From contig NZ_QXEV01000003.1 in NCBI RefSeq assembly GCF_003550015.1, positions 1 through 64,000 of the forward strand: 64,000 nt of DNA, written 5' to 3'. The position numbers and the translations under genes were made by a program. The first letter of the stretch is position 1; each line of letters starts with the position of its first letter. The notes under the pieces are model-generated. The model did not search any database and was not told the DNA's origin. It saw only the letters and a program-made list of their open reading frames with translations. The DNA is from Anaeroplasma bactoclasticum. GTDB lineage: Bacteria > Bacillota_I > Bacilli_A > Acholeplasmatales > Anaeroplasmataceae. Shown here piece after piece: positions 1,720 to 16,535 of this stretch.

Positions 1720-1841
1720 TTTACTCGCAGGGAGTAGAAAGCCTGGTAAACAGGTTGTAATACCGACAATCGCGGCTTCGGGCCCGGTATTATATTAAAT
1801 TTTGAGACTGCAGTACCTTATGGCGGTACTGCGGTCTTTTT
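1720..1841 (+). promoter_or_regulatory. yybP-ykoY (manganese) riboswitch with terminator
   Basis: The leader contains the conserved loop GGGAGTAG (1730-1737), a short P2 hairpin (CCTG/CAGG), and a P3 arm AATACC...GGTATT enclosing GACAATCGCG and the invariant CCCGGTAT element. These are the yybP-ykoY landmarks; that class binds Mn2+ and usually turns genes on. A strong intrinsic terminator follows: GACTGCAGTACC (1806-1817) pairs with GGTACTGCGGTC (1825-1836) before TTTTT. Aptamer plus terminator lies 24 bp before the exchanger gene. No separate promoter is obvious, so it may act on pth read-through. Confidence 0.85.
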
Positions 1842-1864: not shown

Positions 1865-2965
1865 ATGTTTTTAGATTTAGTAGATTCTTGGATATCTAGC
1901 TGGACTATTGGGAATTGGAGTATTTTATTCTTTATCGTTTTTTTGATCATTGGAGTATTTTTCTTAGTAAAATGTTGTGACATTTTTGTAGATAGTGCAG
2001 CATCCATTGCAAAAAAGGCACATGTATCTCCTTTGGTTATCGGTCTTACGATTGTGGCTATGGGAACCTCATGTCCTGAGCTTGCGGTATCGGCATCCGA
2101 TTCAATTTCAGCATTAGTGGATTCCATAAGTACAGGCACAACAATTCAAGCGAATATTGCGATGGGGAATGTTGTAGGATCCAATATATGTAATATTTTA
2201 TTAGTATTAGGATTATCTATTATCTTTACACCTATCATTGTTAAGAAAGCGGTACTGAAAAGAGATTACCCATTCCTAATTGGTGCATCCTTACTTTTGG
2301 TTTTATTTGGTATTTTCTTTGGTATTTCATCTGCAGTAGGCGATTATACAATTATGCGATGGGAAGGTATTATCTTTATCGTATTAATGGTAGCTTATTT
2401 AATCTATTTAATTTTAGATAGTAAAAGACATCCAACAGATGAAGAGGATGAAGAAATAAAGGATATGCCTGTATGGAAGGCAATCCTATTCTTAGTTTTA
2501 GGCGCACTTGGAATTGCCCTAGGTGGAGAGCTTGTTGTTGTAGGATCTAAAAACCTAGCTGTAATGGGGGCAACCGCAATCGGTATTGAATCCGATTTAG
2601 CTGAAAAGATTGTAGGACTTACGATTGTAGCTGTAGGTACATCACTACCTGAGCTTGTAACTTCTGTAATTGCAGCAAAAAAAGGCCAAGTCGATATGGC
2701 CCTTGGTAATGTCATCGGTTCAAACCTATTTAATATTTTATTTGTATTAGGTGTTTCAGCAACCATTAATCCAATCGTTGCAGATAGTACAATTATCTTT
2801 GATTTAGTATTTATGATGACAACAACCTTATTACTATTCGGTTTATCCTTTACAGGTAAGCTAAAGAAGTGGATGGGATTTTTATTCTTAGGATTATATA
2901 TAGCCTATTTAGTTTATTTAGTTTTAAGAGTTGTTTTAGCATCAAAGGGTATTTGGTTACCTTAA
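1865..2965 (+). CDS. CaCA-family cation/Ca2+ (probably Mn2+) exchanger
   Basis: Polytopic membrane protein (366 residues, about 10-11 helices) of the YrbG/CaxA branch of the Ca2+:cation antiporter superfamily. It shows the two inverted alpha-repeats: GLTIVAMGTSCPELAVS with GNVVGSNICNILLVLG in the first half, and GLTIVAVGTSLPELVTS with GNVIGSNLFNILFVLG in the second. A charged loop (DEEDEEIKD) separates the halves. The manganese riboswitch just upstream implies a role in Mn2+ efflux; YrbG-like exchangers are a known member class of that regulon. A U-rich hairpin follows the stop, so it is the last gene of its transcript. Confidence 0.9.
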   Translation: MFLDLVDSWISSWTIGNWSILFFIVFLIIGVFFLVKCCDIFVDSAASIAKKAHVSPLVIGLTIVAMGTSCPELAVSASDSISALVDSISTGTTIQANIAMGNVVGSNICNILLVLGLSIIFTPIIVKKAVLKRDYPFLIGASLLLVLFGIFFGISSAVGDYTIMRWEGIIFIVLMVAYLIYLILDSKRHPTDEEDEEIKDMPVWKAILFLVLGALGIALGGELVVVGSKNLAVMGATAIGIESDLAEKIVGLTIVAVGTSLPELVTSVIAAKKGQVDMALGNVIGSNLFNILFVLGVSATINPIVADSTIIFDLVFMMTTTLLLFGLSFTGKLKKWMGFLFLGLYIAYLVYLVLRVVLASKGIWLP

Positions 2966-2970
2966 GGACA

Positions 2971-2997
2971 AAAAGGGGAAATTTCCCTTTTTTCTTT
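2971..2997 (+). terminator. Intrinsic terminator after the exchanger
   Basis: AAGGGGAAA pairs with TTTCCCTTT and runs into a T/C-rich tail 6 bp after the stop codon. Confidence 0.8.
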
Positions 2998-3050
2998 CTT
3001 GAAAAGACGAGTTTTATGATAGAATGATAATATAAAATGGAGATGATTAT

Positions 3051-4784
3051 ATGGCAAAGAAAAGACAAACAAAAAAGGCGATTAGAGAAGCGAAGAAGCT
3101 TGCTAAAAAAAGCCCTAAATTATTTATAACCTTAGTTGTATTATTAGCTATTGCAGCTATTATATTTATTGTATTGTGGAGAGTAGGTGTTATTTCCTTT
3201 GGAGATAAAAAGACAGATAAACCAGTTGAGACAACTACAAATCCAGTAGAAACTACAACTACTACAATTACTCCAACAACAACAGAAGTTATCGAAGAAA
3301 AAAGCTATAGCTTTGATAGTAATTTAAAATATTATAAGGTAGAATACGATTCTATAAATAATGAATTCCTTGTAAAGGAAGAAGCATCCTTAGAAAAAGA
3401 TTCCTTATATATTATTGCAAAAGATGTATCAGGTGTGGTATCCTTATATATCCTAGAGGATAATAACACAAAGGAAGTATCCATAGGTGTTTTACCGGCT
3501 AAGGTAGAAAAGGAATATGTTTGGATTTTTAAGGAGACTAAGGATTCAAAGAATGAATTTGTAAAATATGTAGGTGGAATTGTTGAAGGTGTTTGTTATG
3601 ATGAATTCCAAATTCATTTCATGATGCTTGGAAACGATAAGGCTGGAGATTGTACATATATTAAGGCTGGAGATACAGATATTTTAATTGATGCTGGATC
3701 TACATCTGGTTCTTATACTACAACTAGTGCTTATATTAATCAGTATTGTAAGGATAATTCCTTTGAATATGTTATTGCAACACACGGAGATCAAGACCAT
3801 ATTGCAGCATTCCCTAATTTCTTTAAGAATTATGAAGTAGATACTGTAATTGATTTTTCATGTGAAACATATACAAAATATCAAGCATTTAAGGAATCTA
3901 AAAAGACAACTAGAGATTATTTTGCTGGCACAACTAAAACTACCGCAACATATGGTTCATATTTAGAGGCTAGAGATACTTATGCAAAAAAGCATTATAC
4001 TGCTGGTGATTGCTATAATAATATCAATGGTGCAAAAAGAACATATCAGCTATCTGAAAATGTAACTATGGATATTTTATATAACTATTACTATTATGAT
4101 AATAATAATGATGGTAAGGTAGATTCAACAGATGAGAACAATTTCTCTGTATTAACTTTATTCACTTATAATCTAAATGGTACATATCATAGATTCTTCT
4201 TAGGTGGAGATTTAGAAAAAGAGGGAGAAGAAAAGTTTGCAGAATATTATGATGGCTCAACAGAAGAAAAAACAATGCATAGCGTAGATTTATATAAGGC
4301 AGGACATCATGGCTCTAAAACATCATCGAATGATTGCTTATTAGATATATTACAGCCAAAGCTTTGTGTTGCTTGTTGTTGCTGTGGTACAGATGAATAT
4401 ACACCAATTACAGATAATCAATTCCCAACACAGGATTTTATTAATCGTATTGCGAAGTGGACAGATAAGGTTTATGCACCATCTGTATTTGATTCTTATG
4501 AAATTGTAACAGCTTCTCAAGCAAAGGATTCTGATGGTAATTTAAAATTTGATAAGAATGGAAATCCTGTATCTGAAAGAAGTGGAGTTGCTATTGGTGA
4601 ACAATATATTCATACAACAGGATTTAAAGAGCTAAATGGTAATATTATTGTTTCATGTAATGGTAGCAATGTAGGACTTTGGGCATCTAATAATTTAACA
4701 AAGCTTAAAGACACGGAATGGTTTAATTCAAAGGTAACACTAGATGGTATAGAAAGGACAATGAGAGTCTGGCCATCTATTTAA
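3051..4784 (+). CDS. Membrane-anchored metallo-beta-lactamase-fold hydrolase (ComEC-like domain)
   Basis: 577 residues: a very basic cytosolic N-terminus, one helix (about residues 25-45), a Thr-rich spacer (~55-80) as in surface-exposed proteins, a beta-rich segment, then a metallo-beta-lactamase domain of the ComEC/Rec2 C-terminal type. Metal ligands visible are THGDQDH and KAGHHGSKTS, with DAGSTSG before them. A run CVACCCC follows; its role is unknown. There is no ComEC channel domain, so this is an extracytoplasmic hydrolase of unknown substrate (nucleic acid or phosphoester is a guess). An ATG at 3051 fits GGAGATG upstream. The DHH phosphoesterase gene follows after 10 bp. Confidence 0.8.
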   Translation: MAKKRQTKKAIREAKKLAKKSPKLFITLVVLLAIAAIIFIVLWRVGVISFGDKKTDKPVETTTNPVETTTTTITPTTTEVIEEKSYSFDSNLKYYKVEYDSINNEFLVKEEASLEKDSLYIIAKDVSGVVSLYILEDNNTKEVSIGVLPAKVEKEYVWIFKETKDSKNEFVKYVGGIVEGVCYDEFQIHFMMLGNDKAGDCTYIKAGDTDILIDAGSTSGSYTTTSAYINQYCKDNSFEYVIATHGDQDHIAAFPNFFKNYEVDTVIDFSCETYTKYQAFKESKKTTRDYFAGTTKTTATYGSYLEARDTYAKKHYTAGDCYNNINGAKRTYQLSENVTMDILYNYYYYDNNNDGKVDSTDENNFSVLTLFTYNLNGTYHRFFLGGDLEKEGEEKFAEYYDGSTEEKTMHSVDLYKAGHHGSKTSSNDCLLDILQPKLCVACCCCGTDEYTPITDNQFPTQDFINRIAKWTDKVYAPSVFDSYEIVTASQAKDSDGNLKFDKNGNPVSERSGVAIGEQYIHTTGFKELNGNIIVSCNGSNVGLWASNNLTKLKDTEWFNSKVTLDGIERTMRVWPSI

Positions 4785-4794
4785 GGAGGCATAT

Positions 4795-5745
4795 ATGGAA
4801 ACTATATTAAATAAAATTAAAGAATTTGACAAAATCATAATTCAAGGTCATAGTAGACCAGATGGAGATTGTATTGGATCTCAATATGGCTTATATTATT
4901 TAATTAAGGAGTCTTTCCCTAATAAAACTGTAATTATTACAGGTGAAACTAGTGAATATGTATCTTTTATTGGAAGACCTACATTATGCTTAGATTCTGA
5001 TTTTGAAGGAGCATTATCTATTTGCCTAGATTGTGGTAATTCAGAAAGATTATCTGATAAAAGATTTACCTTAGCTAAATATGTAATTAAAATTGATCAT
5101 CATCCAAATGTAGAACCATATGGTGATTATGTATATGTAGATACTACTTCCCCTGCATGTGCACAAATCATTACAGAGTTCTATATGAAATATAAGGATG
5201 AGCTTAAAATGACAAAGGAATGTGCAACAGCACTTTATACAGGTATTTTAACAGATACAGGTAGATTTAAATTTGATTCTGTAAATTCTAGAACCTTTAA
5301 TGCTGCCGCATGCTTAGTAGACCATGGCGTTGATTTAGCTTATATTGACAACAAGCTATCTGTAGAAACATTAGATACGCTAAAGCTTAAAGGATGGGTT
5401 TTAACAAACTTTAAGATGAGCGAGCATGGATTTGCATATATCGTATTAAAAAGAGAAACTATTGAGCAATTTAAGGTATCCGATGAGGATGCGTCTAATC
5501 AGGTATCAACAATATCTACAATAGAAGGATGTCCTGTTTGGGCATTATTCATTGAGTACCCAGGTGAGATTAGAATAAGGTTAAGATCTAGGGGACCTGT
5601 GATTAATCTTTTAGCTTCAGAATATGAAGGTGGAGGACACCCTAAGGCTGCAGGAGCTAAGCTTGCTTCTTGGGATGATTTAGATTCATTTGTAAAAAAA
5701 GCGGATACTTTAACATTAGAATATAAAAAGTCTCTTGAAAACTAG
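4795..5745 (+). CDS. DHH-family phosphoesterase, NrnA-like (nanoRNase/pAp phosphatase)
   Basis: 316 residues with the DHH architecture: an N-terminal metal motif HSRPDGDCIGS, a second acidic motif CLDCGN, the IDHHPN signature, and a C-terminal DHHA1 domain with the glycine-rich EYEGGGHPKAAG substrate motif. NrnA-type enzymes degrade 2-5 nt RNAs and 3'-phosphoadenosine 5'-phosphate; others cleave c-di-AMP products such as pApA. Which substrate applies cannot be told from sequence. It is probably co-transcribed with the preceding gene (10-bp gap, AAGGAGG site). The tRNA-Gln promoter overlaps its 3' end. Confidence 0.88.
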   Translation: METILNKIKEFDKIIIQGHSRPDGDCIGSQYGLYYLIKESFPNKTVIITGETSEYVSFIGRPTLCLDSDFEGALSICLDCGNSERLSDKRFTLAKYVIKIDHHPNVEPYGDYVYVDTTSPACAQIITEFYMKYKDELKMTKECATALYTGILTDTGRFKFDSVNSRTFNAAACLVDHGVDLAYIDNKLSVETLDTLKLKGWVLTNFKMSEHGFAYIVLKRETIEQFKVSDEDASNQVSTISTIEGCPVWALFIEYPGEIRIRLRSRGPVINLLASEYEGGGHPKAAGAKLASWDDLDSFVKKADTLTLEYKKSLEN

Positions 5746-13422: not shown

Positions 13423-14154
13423 ATGGCTAGCGCATTTTATTCAAAATTTGAATCCTTTGCGTCAGTAGACGGACCTGGTGTCAGGTCCGTTCTGTTTCTT
13501 TGTGGATGTCCATTTCGTTGTCTTTATTGCCACAACCCAGAAACCTGGACTACAAAGGGCGGAAAAGAAATAACAAGCGAGGATGCATTTAAGTTATTAT
13601 CTAAATATAAACCTTATTGGAAAAACAATGGAGGAATTACTATTTCAGGTGGTGAACCACTTCTCCATATGGATTTTTTAATAGAGTTATTTAAGCTTTG
13701 TAAAGAAAAAGGAATATCAACTTGCATTGATACTTCCGGAGCTCCATTTACAAAAGAAGAACCATTTATATCTAAATTTAATGAGTTATTAAAATATACA
13801 GACTTATTTTTAATGGATATTAAAGCACCAAATGAAGAATTACATCAGGTGATTACTGGAAAGTCCAATAAAAATGTCTTAGAAATGTTTGATTATTTAA
13901 ATGAAAAAAATATACCCATTTGGATTCGATATGTATTAGTCCCTAAATATACAGATTCCAAAGAAGTATTAAATCAAACAAAGGATTTTATAAATACATT
14001 AGGGAACGTGAAAAGAGTAGAGGTATTACCATATCATCCATTCGCACTTCCAAAATATGAAGAGCTAGGTATTGAATATCCACTAAAGGATATTAATATG
14101 CCAGATAAAGAATCCTTGGCTTACGCAAAAGAATTATTAGAATTTGAAAGATAA
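13423..14154 (+). CDS. pflA: Pyruvate formate-lyase activating enzyme (radical SAM)
   Basis: 243 residues. Radical-SAM protein that generates the glycyl radical on PflB from S-adenosylmethionine. The 4Fe-4S motif is CGCPFRCLYCHN (CxxxCxxC), preceded by SVDGPGVRSVLFL and followed by the SAM-binding ISGGEPLLH. No ferredoxin insert, as expected for the PflA class. It is co-transcribed with pflB (3-bp gap) and a strong terminator begins at its stop codon. Confidence 0.96.
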   Translation: MASAFYSKFESFASVDGPGVRSVLFLCGCPFRCLYCHNPETWTTKGGKEITSEDAFKLLSKYKPYWKNNGGITISGGEPLLHMDFLIELFKLCKEKGISTCIDTSGAPFTKEEPFISKFNELLKYTDLFLMDIKAPNEELHQVITGKSNKNVLEMFDYLNEKNIPIWIRYVLVPKYTDSKEVLNQTKDFINTLGNVKRVEVLPYHPFALPKYEELGIEYPLKDINMPDKESLAYAKELLEFER

Positions 14155-14179
14155 TCGTACATAAAAAGTACGATTTTTC
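14153..14179 (+). terminator. Terminator of the pfl operon
   Basis: Perfect 8-bp stem AATCGTAC / GTACGATT with a 7-nt loop and a T-rich tail; it starts within the pflA stop codon. Confidence 0.85.
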
Positions 14180-14207
14180 TTTACAATAAGAAAAATGCAT
14201 ATATAAT
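14180..14207 (+). promoter_or_regulatory. Promoter of the second manganese riboswitch transcript
   Basis: TTTACA (14180-14185), 16-bp spacer, TATAAT (14202-14207), giving a start about 20 bp before the aptamer. So this riboswitch has its own promoter. Confidence 0.6.
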
Positions 14208-14229: not shown

Positions 14230-14346
14230 CTTCTATAAAAGGGAGTAGGTGCCCAATTGTTGGGTATATATATCGTCAAGACGGGAAACCCGGTATATAT
14301 TTAAAATTCGAGACTTTTACAATTTAGGATTGTAGAAGTCTTTTCT
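14230..14346 (+). promoter_or_regulatory. yybP-ykoY (manganese) riboswitch with terminator
   Basis: The aptamer shows GGGAGTAG (14241-14248), a P2 hairpin (GCCCA/TGGG), and a P3 arm of ATATATA/TATATAT enclosing CGTCAAGAC, a GGG-AAA-CCC stem and the invariant CCCGGTAT. The arrangement is the same as at 1720-1841 but with different stem sequences, so base-pairing covaries between the copies. The expression platform is a terminator: GACTTTTACAAT (14312-14323) pairs perfectly with ATTGTAGAAGTC (14329-14340), then TTTTCTTTTCTTTT. The gene at 14367 follows after a GGAGGGG site. Confidence 0.87.
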
Positions 14347-14366
14347 TTTCTTTTGGAGGGGACAAA

Positions 14367-14840
14367 ATGAAAAAACATTTACTTTATGGTAGTTTTAGAG
14401 AATTGCTTGCTTTTGGTATCATTGATCTTGCAGCGATTTTGGCACTTGTTACTCTTAATATAAGTGGCAATGCCAAAATCTGGTACAATGTAATATTGAT
14501 TGTTATTGCAAGCTTATTCTCTGTTTCATTTGTTATATTTTTGGTTTTTTATGTCATTAAGCTTTATGCAAGATGTGGAAAGAAAACAACCGGTGTAATC
14601 TTGGATGTTTTTCAAGTATGGCATAAAAGAAGACCAGATGATTATGTAATTGAAGTAAAATACACCAATGAATTTAATAAGGAATGCAAATTCTATGACA
14701 AGATATCTTGGGAGTTATTTGATCTTTTATCTAAAGATGATATCATTCCTATTCGAGTTCATGGTAAATTTGGCGCACTTATTCCTAATGAGGTACAAGA
14801 TTATATGGAAAGAACATTAAAAAGGAGATCCGGTTTATAA
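14367..14840 (+). CDS. Riboswitch-controlled membrane protein, DUF3592-like
   Basis: 157 residues: two helices (about 15-32 and 41-64), then a soluble beta-rich domain with a pattern shared with the protein at 15829 (YTNEFNKEC against YKNEYGEEC, and DDIIPIRVHGKFGA against ETIPVHVKEKYAA). This fold pattern resembles DUF3592 proteins; no function is known. It is the first gene behind a manganese riboswitch, so a role in Mn2+ stress or homeostasis is likely (inference from regulation). No metal-binding cluster of His/Asp is evident in the helices, which argues against a simple transporter. Confidence 0.6.
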   Translation: MKKHLLYGSFRELLAFGIIDLAAILALVTLNISGNAKIWYNVILIVIASLFSVSFVIFLVFYVIKLYARCGKKTTGVILDVFQVWHKRRPDDYVIEVKYTNEFNKECKFYDKISWELFDLLSKDDIIPIRVHGKFGALIPNEVQDYMERTLKRRSGL

Positions 14841-14902
14841 GATTTCATATAATCAGAAGTGAATTTCATTTTTAAATATATAAAAAGGAGAGAGAAAGTA
14901 TT

Positions 14903-15331
14903 ATGAAAACAGCAGCACGTGTTCTTACTTTTGTATCTGCAGGAGTAGGTATTCTAACAGCATTTATTTGCTTTATTTATTATTCTAATTTCAATGAATT
15001 ACTTGCTAATTCACAAGTAGATGATCCAAAAGCATTGGATTTAATCGCATTTTTTAAAGGATTATTGCTATTCTTGATTATTGGATGCATAGTTTCTGCA
15101 ATATATGCTTTTATTGCAGGATCACTTTATTCAAGTGATGCAGATCCAAGTATCAAAAAAGCACTTGGAATTGTAGCAATTATTATTGGTATGATTACAA
15201 ATACTGCATTACTTTTAGGTGGTATTTTTGCAGTGGTTTCTGCATCAAGAGAAATCTCTACAAAAGAATACCATTCATCTACTATTAACAATAATAGTAA
15301 TAATGATGATGAATATTCAATTTATAGATAA
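14903..15331 (+). CDS. Small membrane protein, tandem paralogue 1
   Basis: 142 residues with about three or four helices: KTAARVLTFVSAGVGILTAF at the N-terminus, then a variable polar loop (NSQVDDPKAL), a middle helix, a conserved DADPSIKKALGIVAIIIG segment and a last helix, ending in an Asn/Ser-rich tail. The layout resembles small DUF4064-type proteins. It is 62 bp after the previous gene with no terminator between, so the manganese riboswitch should control it. The next gene is a close paralogue. Function unknown. Confidence 0.65.
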   Translation: MKTAARVLTFVSAGVGILTAFICFIYYSNFNELLANSQVDDPKALDLIAFFKGLLLFLIIGCIVSAIYAFIAGSLYSSDADPSIKKALGIVAIIIGMITNTALLLGGIFAVVSASREISTKEYHSSTINNNSNNDDEYSIYR

Positions 15332-15367
15332 GTTTTATTTATAATAAAAAAACGGGAGGAAAAGATT

Positions 15368-15793
15368 ATGAAAACAGCAGCACGTATTATTACTTTTGTA
15401 TCTGCAGGAGCAGGTATCTTAACAGCATTTATTTGTTTTCTATATTTAACTTTATTTACAAAAATATTTGATTTTGCACAATCACAAGAACCTGATCCAA
15501 GATTAACGGATTTAGAGGTATTCTATCAAAGATTATTCTTATATTTAATTATTGCAGGCTTAGTTTCAGCAGTAGTTGCAATCATTGCAGGTATTGTTTT
15601 TTCAAGTGAAGCAGATCCAAGTGTAAAAAAAGCACTTGGAATTGTAGCTATTATCATTGGTGCCTTCGCAAATACAGTATTACTTTTAGGTGGAATCTTT
15701 GAAGTGGTTTCTTCATCAAGAACGATTACTTCAAATAATTATTCATCTTCTAATAAGAATAATAGCGATAATGGTTATACAGTTTATAGATAA
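15368..15793 (+). CDS. Small membrane protein, tandem paralogue 2
   Basis: 141 residues and closely related to the preceding product: the first ~23 residues and the SSEADPSVKKALGIVAIII region are nearly identical, also at DNA level, while the polar loop (AQSQEPDPRLTDLEVFYQ) and the tail have diverged. This is a recent tandem duplication with divergence confined to the presumed exposed loop. A GGGAGG site lies 8 bp before the ATG. Same operon; function unknown. Confidence 0.65.
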   Translation: MKTAARIITFVSAGAGILTAFICFLYLTLFTKIFDFAQSQEPDPRLTDLEVFYQRLFLYLIIAGLVSAVVAIIAGIVFSSEADPSVKKALGIVAIIIGAFANTVLLLGGIFEVVSSSRTITSNNYSSSNKNNSDNGYTVYR

Positions 15794-15828
15794 TTATTAT
15801 ATATAATAGGCTAAGGAGGCTAACAGTT

Positions 15829-16413
15829 ATGAAAACATATAAAATAGGGTGTAGTACATCTAGAAGTGTATGGCTAGCGTTAACTATTCCTTTACTAGCA
15901 ATTGTAATTATAACCTTAGCTACAGTAAAGAATAGTCCACAGATTATACCCTGGGCTATCGTTTTTGGTATTGCTTTTGGTATTGTTTTAACAGGATTTA
16001 TTGTATCTAGTATATTTGAAAATAGAAAAACCTTTGCCTTATCTGGTAATTTATCTACTGCAACTATAGAAAAAATAAAAAAGAACCCATTTTCAGAAAC
16101 ATATTCGACAGTATTTTATAAATATAAAAATGAATATGGTGAAGAATGTATTGGAAAATGTAAATTATTTAAAGATTGGGTAGAAATGCTTTATGAAGGT
16201 GAGACAATTCCTGTACATGTAAAAGAGAAATATGCAGCATTTGATATGGAAGAAATTACTACCAATAAATATGTTGTAAAGCCTACTATAGTTATTAAAG
16301 AAGAAAAAGAAGTATTTGTTGCTCCAAAGGCTTATTGTGAATATTGTAATTCTAAATATGATATTAAATTAGAAAAATGCCCATATTGTGGTGCAGTAAA
16401 TAAAGCAAAATAA
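15829..16413 (+). CDS. DUF3592-like membrane protein with C-terminal zinc ribbon
   Basis: 194 residues: two helices (about 13-30 and 37-62), a soluble domain homologous to that of the 14367 product (FYKYKNEYGEECIG, ETIPVHVKEKYAAF), a linker, and a C-terminal zinc ribbon CEYCNSKYD / CPYCGAVNK (two CxxC pairs). It follows the duplicated genes by 35 bp with an AAGGAGG site and ends the riboswitch-controlled unit before the tRNA-Thr promoter. The paired DUF3592-like proteins at both ends of the unit suggest partners in one complex (inference). Confidence 0.62.
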   Translation: MKTYKIGCSTSRSVWLALTIPLLAIVIITLATVKNSPQIIPWAIVFGIAFGIVLTGFIVSSIFENRKTFALSGNLSTATIEKIKKNPFSETYSTVFYKYKNEYGEECIGKCKLFKDWVEMLYEGETIPVHVKEKYAAFDMEEITTNKYVVKPTIVIKEEKEVFVAPKAYCEYCNSKYDIKLEKCPYCGAVNKAK

Positions 16414-16417
16414 GATA

Positions 16418-16449
16418 TTGTTTTATCATTCATTTATCTGTGCTATAAT
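16418..16449 (+). promoter_or_regulatory. Promoter of tRNA-Thr
   Basis: An extended -10 (TGC then TATAAT, 16444-16449) lies 10 bp before the tRNA. A TTGTTT at 16418-16423 is the best -35 but its 20-bp spacer is long, so the extended -10 probably dominates. Confidence 0.55.
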
Positions 16450-16459
16450 ATTTGGGTAT

Positions 16460-16535
16460 GCTGGATTAGCACAGTTGGTAGTGCAGCTCCCTCGTAAAGA
16501 GCAGGTCGTAGGTTCAAGTCCTATATCCAGCACCA
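16460..16535 (+). tRNA. tRNA-Thr (anticodon CGT) with a C31-A39 mismatch
   Basis: Cloverleaf with acceptor GCTGGAT/ATCCAGC, D-stem GCAC/GTGC, T-stem GTAGG/CCTAT (one G-U) and encoded CCA. The anticodon loop CTCGTAA reads CGT, the Thr isoacceptor for ACG. The anticodon stem GCTCC/AGAGC pairs at four positions, and the pair next to the loop is C-A. Either the tRNA tolerates this or it is a decayed or edited gene. Everything else is intact. Confidence 0.93.

Follow-up and report, generated by a model that had tools for sequence, protein, structure and literature searches.

Layout of the locus

The window analysed here is the whole stretch of 64,000 nucleotides from Anaeroplasma bactoclasticum (contig NZ_QXEV01000003.1). 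At the locus under study, a pyruvate formate-lyase activase gene ends at 14154 and is followed by a terminator-like site (14153–14175), a structured leader and four open reading frames (ORF1–ORF4), each preceded by a plausible ribosome-binding site (Table 1). An earlier note on this DNA, made from the sequence alone, had described the leader as a yybP-ykoY manganese riboswitch with its own promoter and a perfect terminator. Both accessory elements are borne out: the promoter-like site deviates from the consensus at a single position and is the top-scoring one within 2.8 kb, and the terminator hairpin has 15 uninterrupted pairs, three of them G-U (z −6.2). Between ORF4 and a tRNA-Thr gene 47 bases downstream (16414–16532) there is no terminator-like site, so that transcription from the riboswitch may continue through the tRNA.

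Table 1. Features of the leader, the operon and the second riboswitch copy in the window
Feature	Position	Strand	Basis or detail
Predicted sigma-70 type promoter TTTACA-16-TATAAT	14180–14207	+	11/12 consensus positions
Predicted P4-less (three-way junction) Mn2+ riboswitch aptamer	14236–14318	+	Model R1, 79.7 bits; covariation, 86 relatives
P1 (P1.1) 5' strand AAAAG	14237–14241	+	Partner 14314–14318 CUUUU
L1 5' side GGAGUAG	14242–14248	+	Opposite 14309–14313 CGAGA
P2 hairpin	14250–14266	+	Covariation in 4/4 modelled P2 pairs
P3 and L3, UAUAUA/UAUAUA enclosing CGUCAAGAC...CGG	14267–14299	+	Covariation in 6/6 P3.1 pairs
J3/1 linker UUUAAAA at the P4 site of canonical riboswitches	14300–14306	+	Constant length in relatives
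Intrinsic terminator, 5' arm including the P1 3' strand	14310–14342	+	Hairpin prediction
Shine-Dalgarno sequence GGAGGGG ahead of ORF1	14355–14361	+	Sequence
ORF1, 157 aa, apparent TM segments in a hydrophobic N-terminal half, plus a soluble domain	14367–14840	+	ORF4 homologue
ORF2, 142 aa, DUF4064	14903–15331	+	Pfam PF13273, 34.1 bits (cut-off 32.1)
ORF3, 141 aa, tandem duplicate of ORF2	15368–15793	+	63% identity to ORF2; PF13273 at 28.0 bits misses the cut-off
ORF4, 194 aa, apparent TM hairpin of two long N-terminal helices, small beta barrel and C-terminal zinc ribbon	15829–16413	+	Predicted fold
Second P4-less Mn riboswitch, predicted	1725–1812	+	R1 49.8 bits, E 2.3e-7; outside training set
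Terminator of the second copy, overlapping its P1 3' strand	1804–1838	+	15 pairs
Na+/Ca2+ exchanger family (YrbG-type) protein behind the second copy	1865–2965	+	Pfam PF01699, E 9.9e-65

Structure of the aptamer

Aligned elements of the family have in common AAAAGGGAGUAG, a hairpin and a second hairpin with CGUCA opposite CGG, followed in the 3' part by UUAAA and then by (C/U)RAGACUUUU, which leads into the terminator. For the analysis of covariation, 86 P4-less matches were aligned to a purpose-built covariance model (R1, see below), a fitting that leans the counts towards the model. Standard pairs occupied 89.5% of the cells compared with 60.0% after shuffling, and the covariation score was 0.696 compared with 0.188. 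When the pairing partners were slid by one to three columns the signal was lost, with a score of at most 0.115. Changes on both sides were found in 18 of the 19 pairs of the 86 elements. The gap between the real alignment and both controls is large despite the model-fitted alignment. RNAalifold applied to a MAFFT alignment recovered P2 alone because MAFFT had misregistered P2 and P3, and the model-based alignment was used instead.

The helices backed by covariation are P1, P1.2, P2 and P3. Four of the five P1 pairs are altered on both sides among the relatives, and in the copy at 1725 this helix reads GCAG/CUGC. P1.2, which begins in the leader with the pair G14248–C14309, is weak in the window, a G-C and a G-U pair being followed by a mismatch. 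L1 reads GGGAGUA(G/A) in 83 of the 86 relatives and the strand facing it (C/U)RAGAC in 85. The segment between P3 and P1.2 has a constant length in 71 of the 86 and the consensus UURAA. Where a four-way junction would have P4, the window has a linker of about 6 nt; P4 being absent, the junction is three-way. The earlier note had overlooked this missing helix.

Among families of three-way junctions, a long J3/1 combined with almost no J2/3 is expected to place P3 beside P1. Such a placement would give the docking that the metal site needs.

Detection and distribution of the element

As a check on its assignment the earlier note had proposed a search with the Rfam model RF00080, with a score below threshold counting against it. 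In a cmscan against Rfam this model did not match the leader even at E 10, and in scans of the window, its own genome and the class there were zero matches above the cut-off (19 of 395 genomes of the class matched, none above the gathering threshold). The check thus formally failed and, by the note's own measure, the riboswitch would have to be given up. The assignment to yybP-ykoY stands nevertheless, since the Mn-binding core is intact and homologous elements from many genera lie before Mn exporters. RF00080 has a P4 helix in its printed consensus, the first 25 positions of which, P1 included, are unpaired; the leader was probably missed because it has no P4, while the model expects P4 and describes no P1.

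R1 was built from 21 sequences, and its E-values are rough; the leader, which is itself one of the 21, scored 79.7 bits (E 3.8e-13). Matches were found in 52 of 160 genomes of the order. In the class, with a limit of E ≤ 0.001 for each genome, there were matches in 64 of 395 genomes, where about 0.4 would be expected by chance. In the window's own genome R1 finds four copies, among them the one at 1725–1812 of the window. A DNA search with the leader also returned another copy there, 86% identical, as well as fragments in 20 of the 55 family genomes. Among named genomes, a pattern scan located the P4-less core in rumen Acholeplasmatales MAGs, Erysipelotrichaceae, Clostridia, Streptococcus and Floricoccus. 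In one relative (L006), a homologue of the target at C2:65248 in the window's own genome lies behind a decayed riboswitch with a truncated P3 and no terminator.

Members containing P4 occur in a sister genus of the same family, where RF00080 gives them 33–35 bits and R1 finds them too, so the P4-containing and P4-less forms look homologous. For this reason, and because P4-less elements precede the streptococcal P-type ATPase gene for which a yybP-ykoY switch has been reported (PMC11434433), we do not count P4 as defining. We hold with high confidence that the leader belongs to a known riboswitch class, as a variant that Rfam misses and whose target genes are partly new. Because the Rfam model expects P4, a large set of Mn2+ riboswitches from Bacilli and Clostridia appears to have gone unannotated.

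Streptococcal relatives

The streptococcal and Floricoccus P4-less elements stand before P-type ATPases, and for mgtA of S. pneumoniae, a P-type ATPase gene, control by a Mn/Ca-sensing riboswitch of the yybP-ykoY family has been reported (PMC11434433). The best-scoring Rfam family on the leader was SSRC10 (RF02617), with 29.1 bits and E 8e-4, below its gathering cut-off of 56. This match is what favours the view that the leader is an unrelated attenuator or an sRNA such as SSRC10 and resembles a Mn riboswitch by coincidence. We regard that view as very improbable, because the printed SSRC10 consensus itself contains the P4-less Mn-switch core (AGGGAGUAGC, CGUCAAUACGG, CCGG and GCGAGACC, with a short linker and no P4), because SSRC10 was mapped beside a putative calcium transporter gene in S. 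pyogenes (PMC3675131), and because both gene association and covariation speak against coincidence. From sequence likeness, SSRC10 would rather be the terminated leader of a streptococcal P4-less Mn switch, and we infer that the P4-less streptococcal element and SSRC10 are the published mgtA riboswitch. Rfam lists SSRC10 (L118:347–461 and 14235–14347 of the window) as a streptococcal sRNA; the catalogued structure and type look wrong.

Metal site and proposed switching

In the L. lactis structure, Mn2+ is bound by phosphates of G9, U39, C40, U44 and C45 and by N7 of A41 (PMC9190785, PMC6754395). L3 is UCAAUUC in L. lactis and ACAUACU in X. oryzae (PMC6754395); it is UCAAGAC in the window (14276–14282) and ACAUACC in another subgroup of the window's family. 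A14278 is the counterpart of A41, and all 86 relatives have the equivalent adenosine. The L1 consensus GGGAGUAG opposite RAGAC beside P1 is likewise found in the window (14241–14248 with 14309–14314).

The ligand is most likely Mn2+, a reading in which we have good confidence, because of the covariation, the invariant Mn-sensing adenosine, the association with exporters, the second copy in the window and the streptococcal mgtA members. The P4-less junction may alter affinity or specificity, and an RNA of the same class could have another or broader ligand, such as both Ca2+ and Mn2+, or a different soft divalent ion. In favour of this are the many targets that are Ca2+-type P-ATPases or Na+/Ca2+-type exchangers, the phosphate or potassium transporters among the rest, the Mn/Ca-sensing label of the streptococcal mgtA switch (PMC11434433) and the variable L3 (CGUCA, CGACA or CAACA). 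The invariance of the adenosine with its Mn-specific N7, together with the dedicated Mn exporter family MntP as first gene in 9 elements, makes this alternative improbable.

The P1 3' strand lies within a terminator-like stem in 118 of 136 elements, compared with 81 of 408 random positions, and in the window leader P1 and the terminator are mutually exclusive, as in a switch helix. In L. lactis, Mn2+ stabilises P1.1 and thereby permits read-through (PMC11087558), so that by analogy the leader would act as a Mn2+ ON switch. Under Mn2+ scarcity, the terminator hairpin would capture the CUUUU strand of P1 and transcription would end ahead of ORF1. In Mn2+ excess, the ion would bind between L1 and L3, with a contact through A14278, docking the P1-P2 and P3 legs and stabilising P1; the terminator could then not form and the four-gene operon would be transcribed.

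The covarying structure, the intact metal-site nucleotides, the overlap with the terminator, the promoter-like site and the presence of the same RNA before Mn exporter families are all observed, and the leader is very probably a compact, P4-less yybP-ykoY Mn2+ switch by which Mn2+ excess turns the operon on through read-through of the terminator. It is thus probable that manganese switches on the four little-known membrane proteins. Given confirmation of the ligand, the P4-less form would offer a smaller aptamer for studies of Mn2+ sensing.

Genes behind related elements

Across Bacilli and Clostridia, relatives of the leader stand ahead of known Mn exporters. Of 59 elements outside the window's family, 24 have as first gene one for a P-type ATPase, 16 one for a YrbG-type exchanger and 8 one for MntP, the Pfam families having been checked for representatives. 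Genes of manganese homeostasis are associated with 48 of these 59 elements and with 44 of 77 inside the family; the four-gene operon of the window shows no such association.

Behind the second copy in the window (1865–5745), the exchanger gene is followed by genes for a metallo-beta-lactamase-fold protein and a DHH phosphoesterase, and this gene order is repeated in several congeners. Tandem riboswitches stand before adjacent exchanger and TrkH genes in L080 and before two paralogous exchangers in L195. Phosphate transporters (PHO4, Na/Pi cotransporter with PhoU) lie behind the same riboswitch in L091, L068 and L178, sometimes with a YrbG-type exchanger next to them.

A second kind of target recurs. 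SPFH/flotillin is the first gene behind 18 related elements, including one from a clostridial genome (L261), and zinc-ribbon proteins follow the element in several genomes, the C2 target of the window's own genome included. A DUF3784 protein lies behind one related element, and a congener protein (L087) weakly similar to ORF1 (E 6e-4) is also found behind the element. Loci with the element directly before flotillin/SPFH genes are L061, L074, L077, L079, L086, L175, L261, L130 and L217; one related element precedes a pair of an SPFH gene and a gene that is NfeD-like by appearance. The recurrence of flotillin/SPFH and zinc-ribbon membrane proteins suggests that these are Mn2+-induced envelope genes. 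The flotillins FloT and FloA of B. subtilis co-purify with MeeF and MeeY, TerC proteins that metalate exoenzymes (PMC10550928).

The four membrane proteins

ORF2 and ORF3 are the tandem duplicated small membrane proteins that had been claimed, and it is also right that none of the four products is a known transporter of the kind this riboswitch controls. The designation of ORF1 and ORF4 as DUF3592-like was not upheld, as no Pfam match to this family was obtained up to E 1; Pfam and NCBIfam assigned no family to either protein. The two are homologous to each other (27% identity, E 1e-6). The C-terminal end of ORF4 carries a CxxC...CxxC zinc ribbon that shares 49% identity with the zinc ribbon of a congener's riboswitch-linked protein. 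In a model of ORF4 from a two-row alignment (mean pLDDT 66), the two long helices are accompanied by a barrel of five strands, modelled with moderate confidence, and by a zinc-ribbon tail that is uncertain; the best match of this model among solved structures (Z 6.9) is middling and non-diagnostic.

No orthologues of ORF1–ORF4 were found among 54 genomes of the family; the conserved synteny with the riboswitch for which the earlier note had proposed to look is therefore absent. No riboswitch was found near weak homologues of the DUF4064 proteins or of ORF4 elsewhere, and homologues of the operon lacking the riboswitch are what that note had named as speaking against its claim. The four proteins may be new components of Mn2+ stress, as it suggested, but the genes are unconserved in relatives and their weak homologues are free of the riboswitch. 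What favours the suggestion is indirect: in related genomes other small membrane, zinc-ribbon and SPFH/flotillin proteins lie repeatedly behind the element.

Protection or remodelling of the membrane under Mn2+ excess is the most likely role of the four proteins, held with low confidence. It is rather unlikely, if worth serious weight, that the riboswitch is genuine and the operon incidental, a duplicated leader having come to stand before fast-evolving membrane genes whose products have no role in manganese. Such an origin would fit the lack of the four genes in the 54 family genomes, the near-identical aptamers before unrelated genes inside one genome and the decayed element that is all L006 keeps before its homologue of the C2 target. 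Against it, the leader has an intact aptamer and terminator as well as an intact promoter-like site and ribosome-binding site, and small membrane, zinc-ribbon and SPFH proteins are repeatedly targets in several genomes. Since this alternative is confined to the role of the four proteins, it is compatible with the leader being a P4-less Mn2+ switch.

We tentatively suggest, at less than even chances, that the compact Mn2+ riboswitch of this rumen lineage governs an envelope regulon beyond the exporters, in which Mn2+ excess would induce flotillin/SPFH scaffolds and small DUF4064, DUF3784, beta-barrel and zinc-ribbon membrane proteins, the window operon included. If true, such a regulon would be a second line of defence or a metal-handling route at the membrane. 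Were the ligand confirmed, the targets would point to a response to Mn2+ by flotillin/SPFH and by several membrane families that are so far unknown.

Comparison with known systems

Searches of the open literature, most subscription papers lying outside their scope, gave no relevant paper on a Mn riboswitch with a three-way junction, or on Mn riboswitches with DUF4064 or with flotillin, SPFH or NfeD; a solved structure of the P4-less form was not found in the literature searched.

DUF4064 is a four-helix domain present in AuxB of Staphylococcus aureus, which acts on the cell envelope (PMC12505970). ORF2 and ORF3 share this membrane domain with AuxB, which differs by its long cytoplasmic tail and by its binding to GpsB and PknB; the covered part of that source reports no manganese link. 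SPFH/flotillin scaffolds such as FloT and FloA, with NfeD, are found behind related elements but are absent from the window operon.

The Streptococcus mgtA switch (PMC11434433) and SSRC10 share with the leader the lack of P4, the same linker region and terminator arrangement; they differ in their target genes, standing before a P-type ATPase, and SSRC10 is listed as an sRNA with a different structure. From the canonical yybP-ykoY riboswitches (RF00080; L. lactis and X. oryzae, PMC6754395) the leader differs by its lack of P4, its three-way junction with a short UURAA linker and its invisibility to RF00080. With them it shares L1 (GGGAGUAG/RAGAC), L3 of the form UCA(N)4 with the Mn-contacting adenosine and CGG on the opposite side, the competition of the P1 switch helix with the terminator and, presumably, the ON-switch logic.
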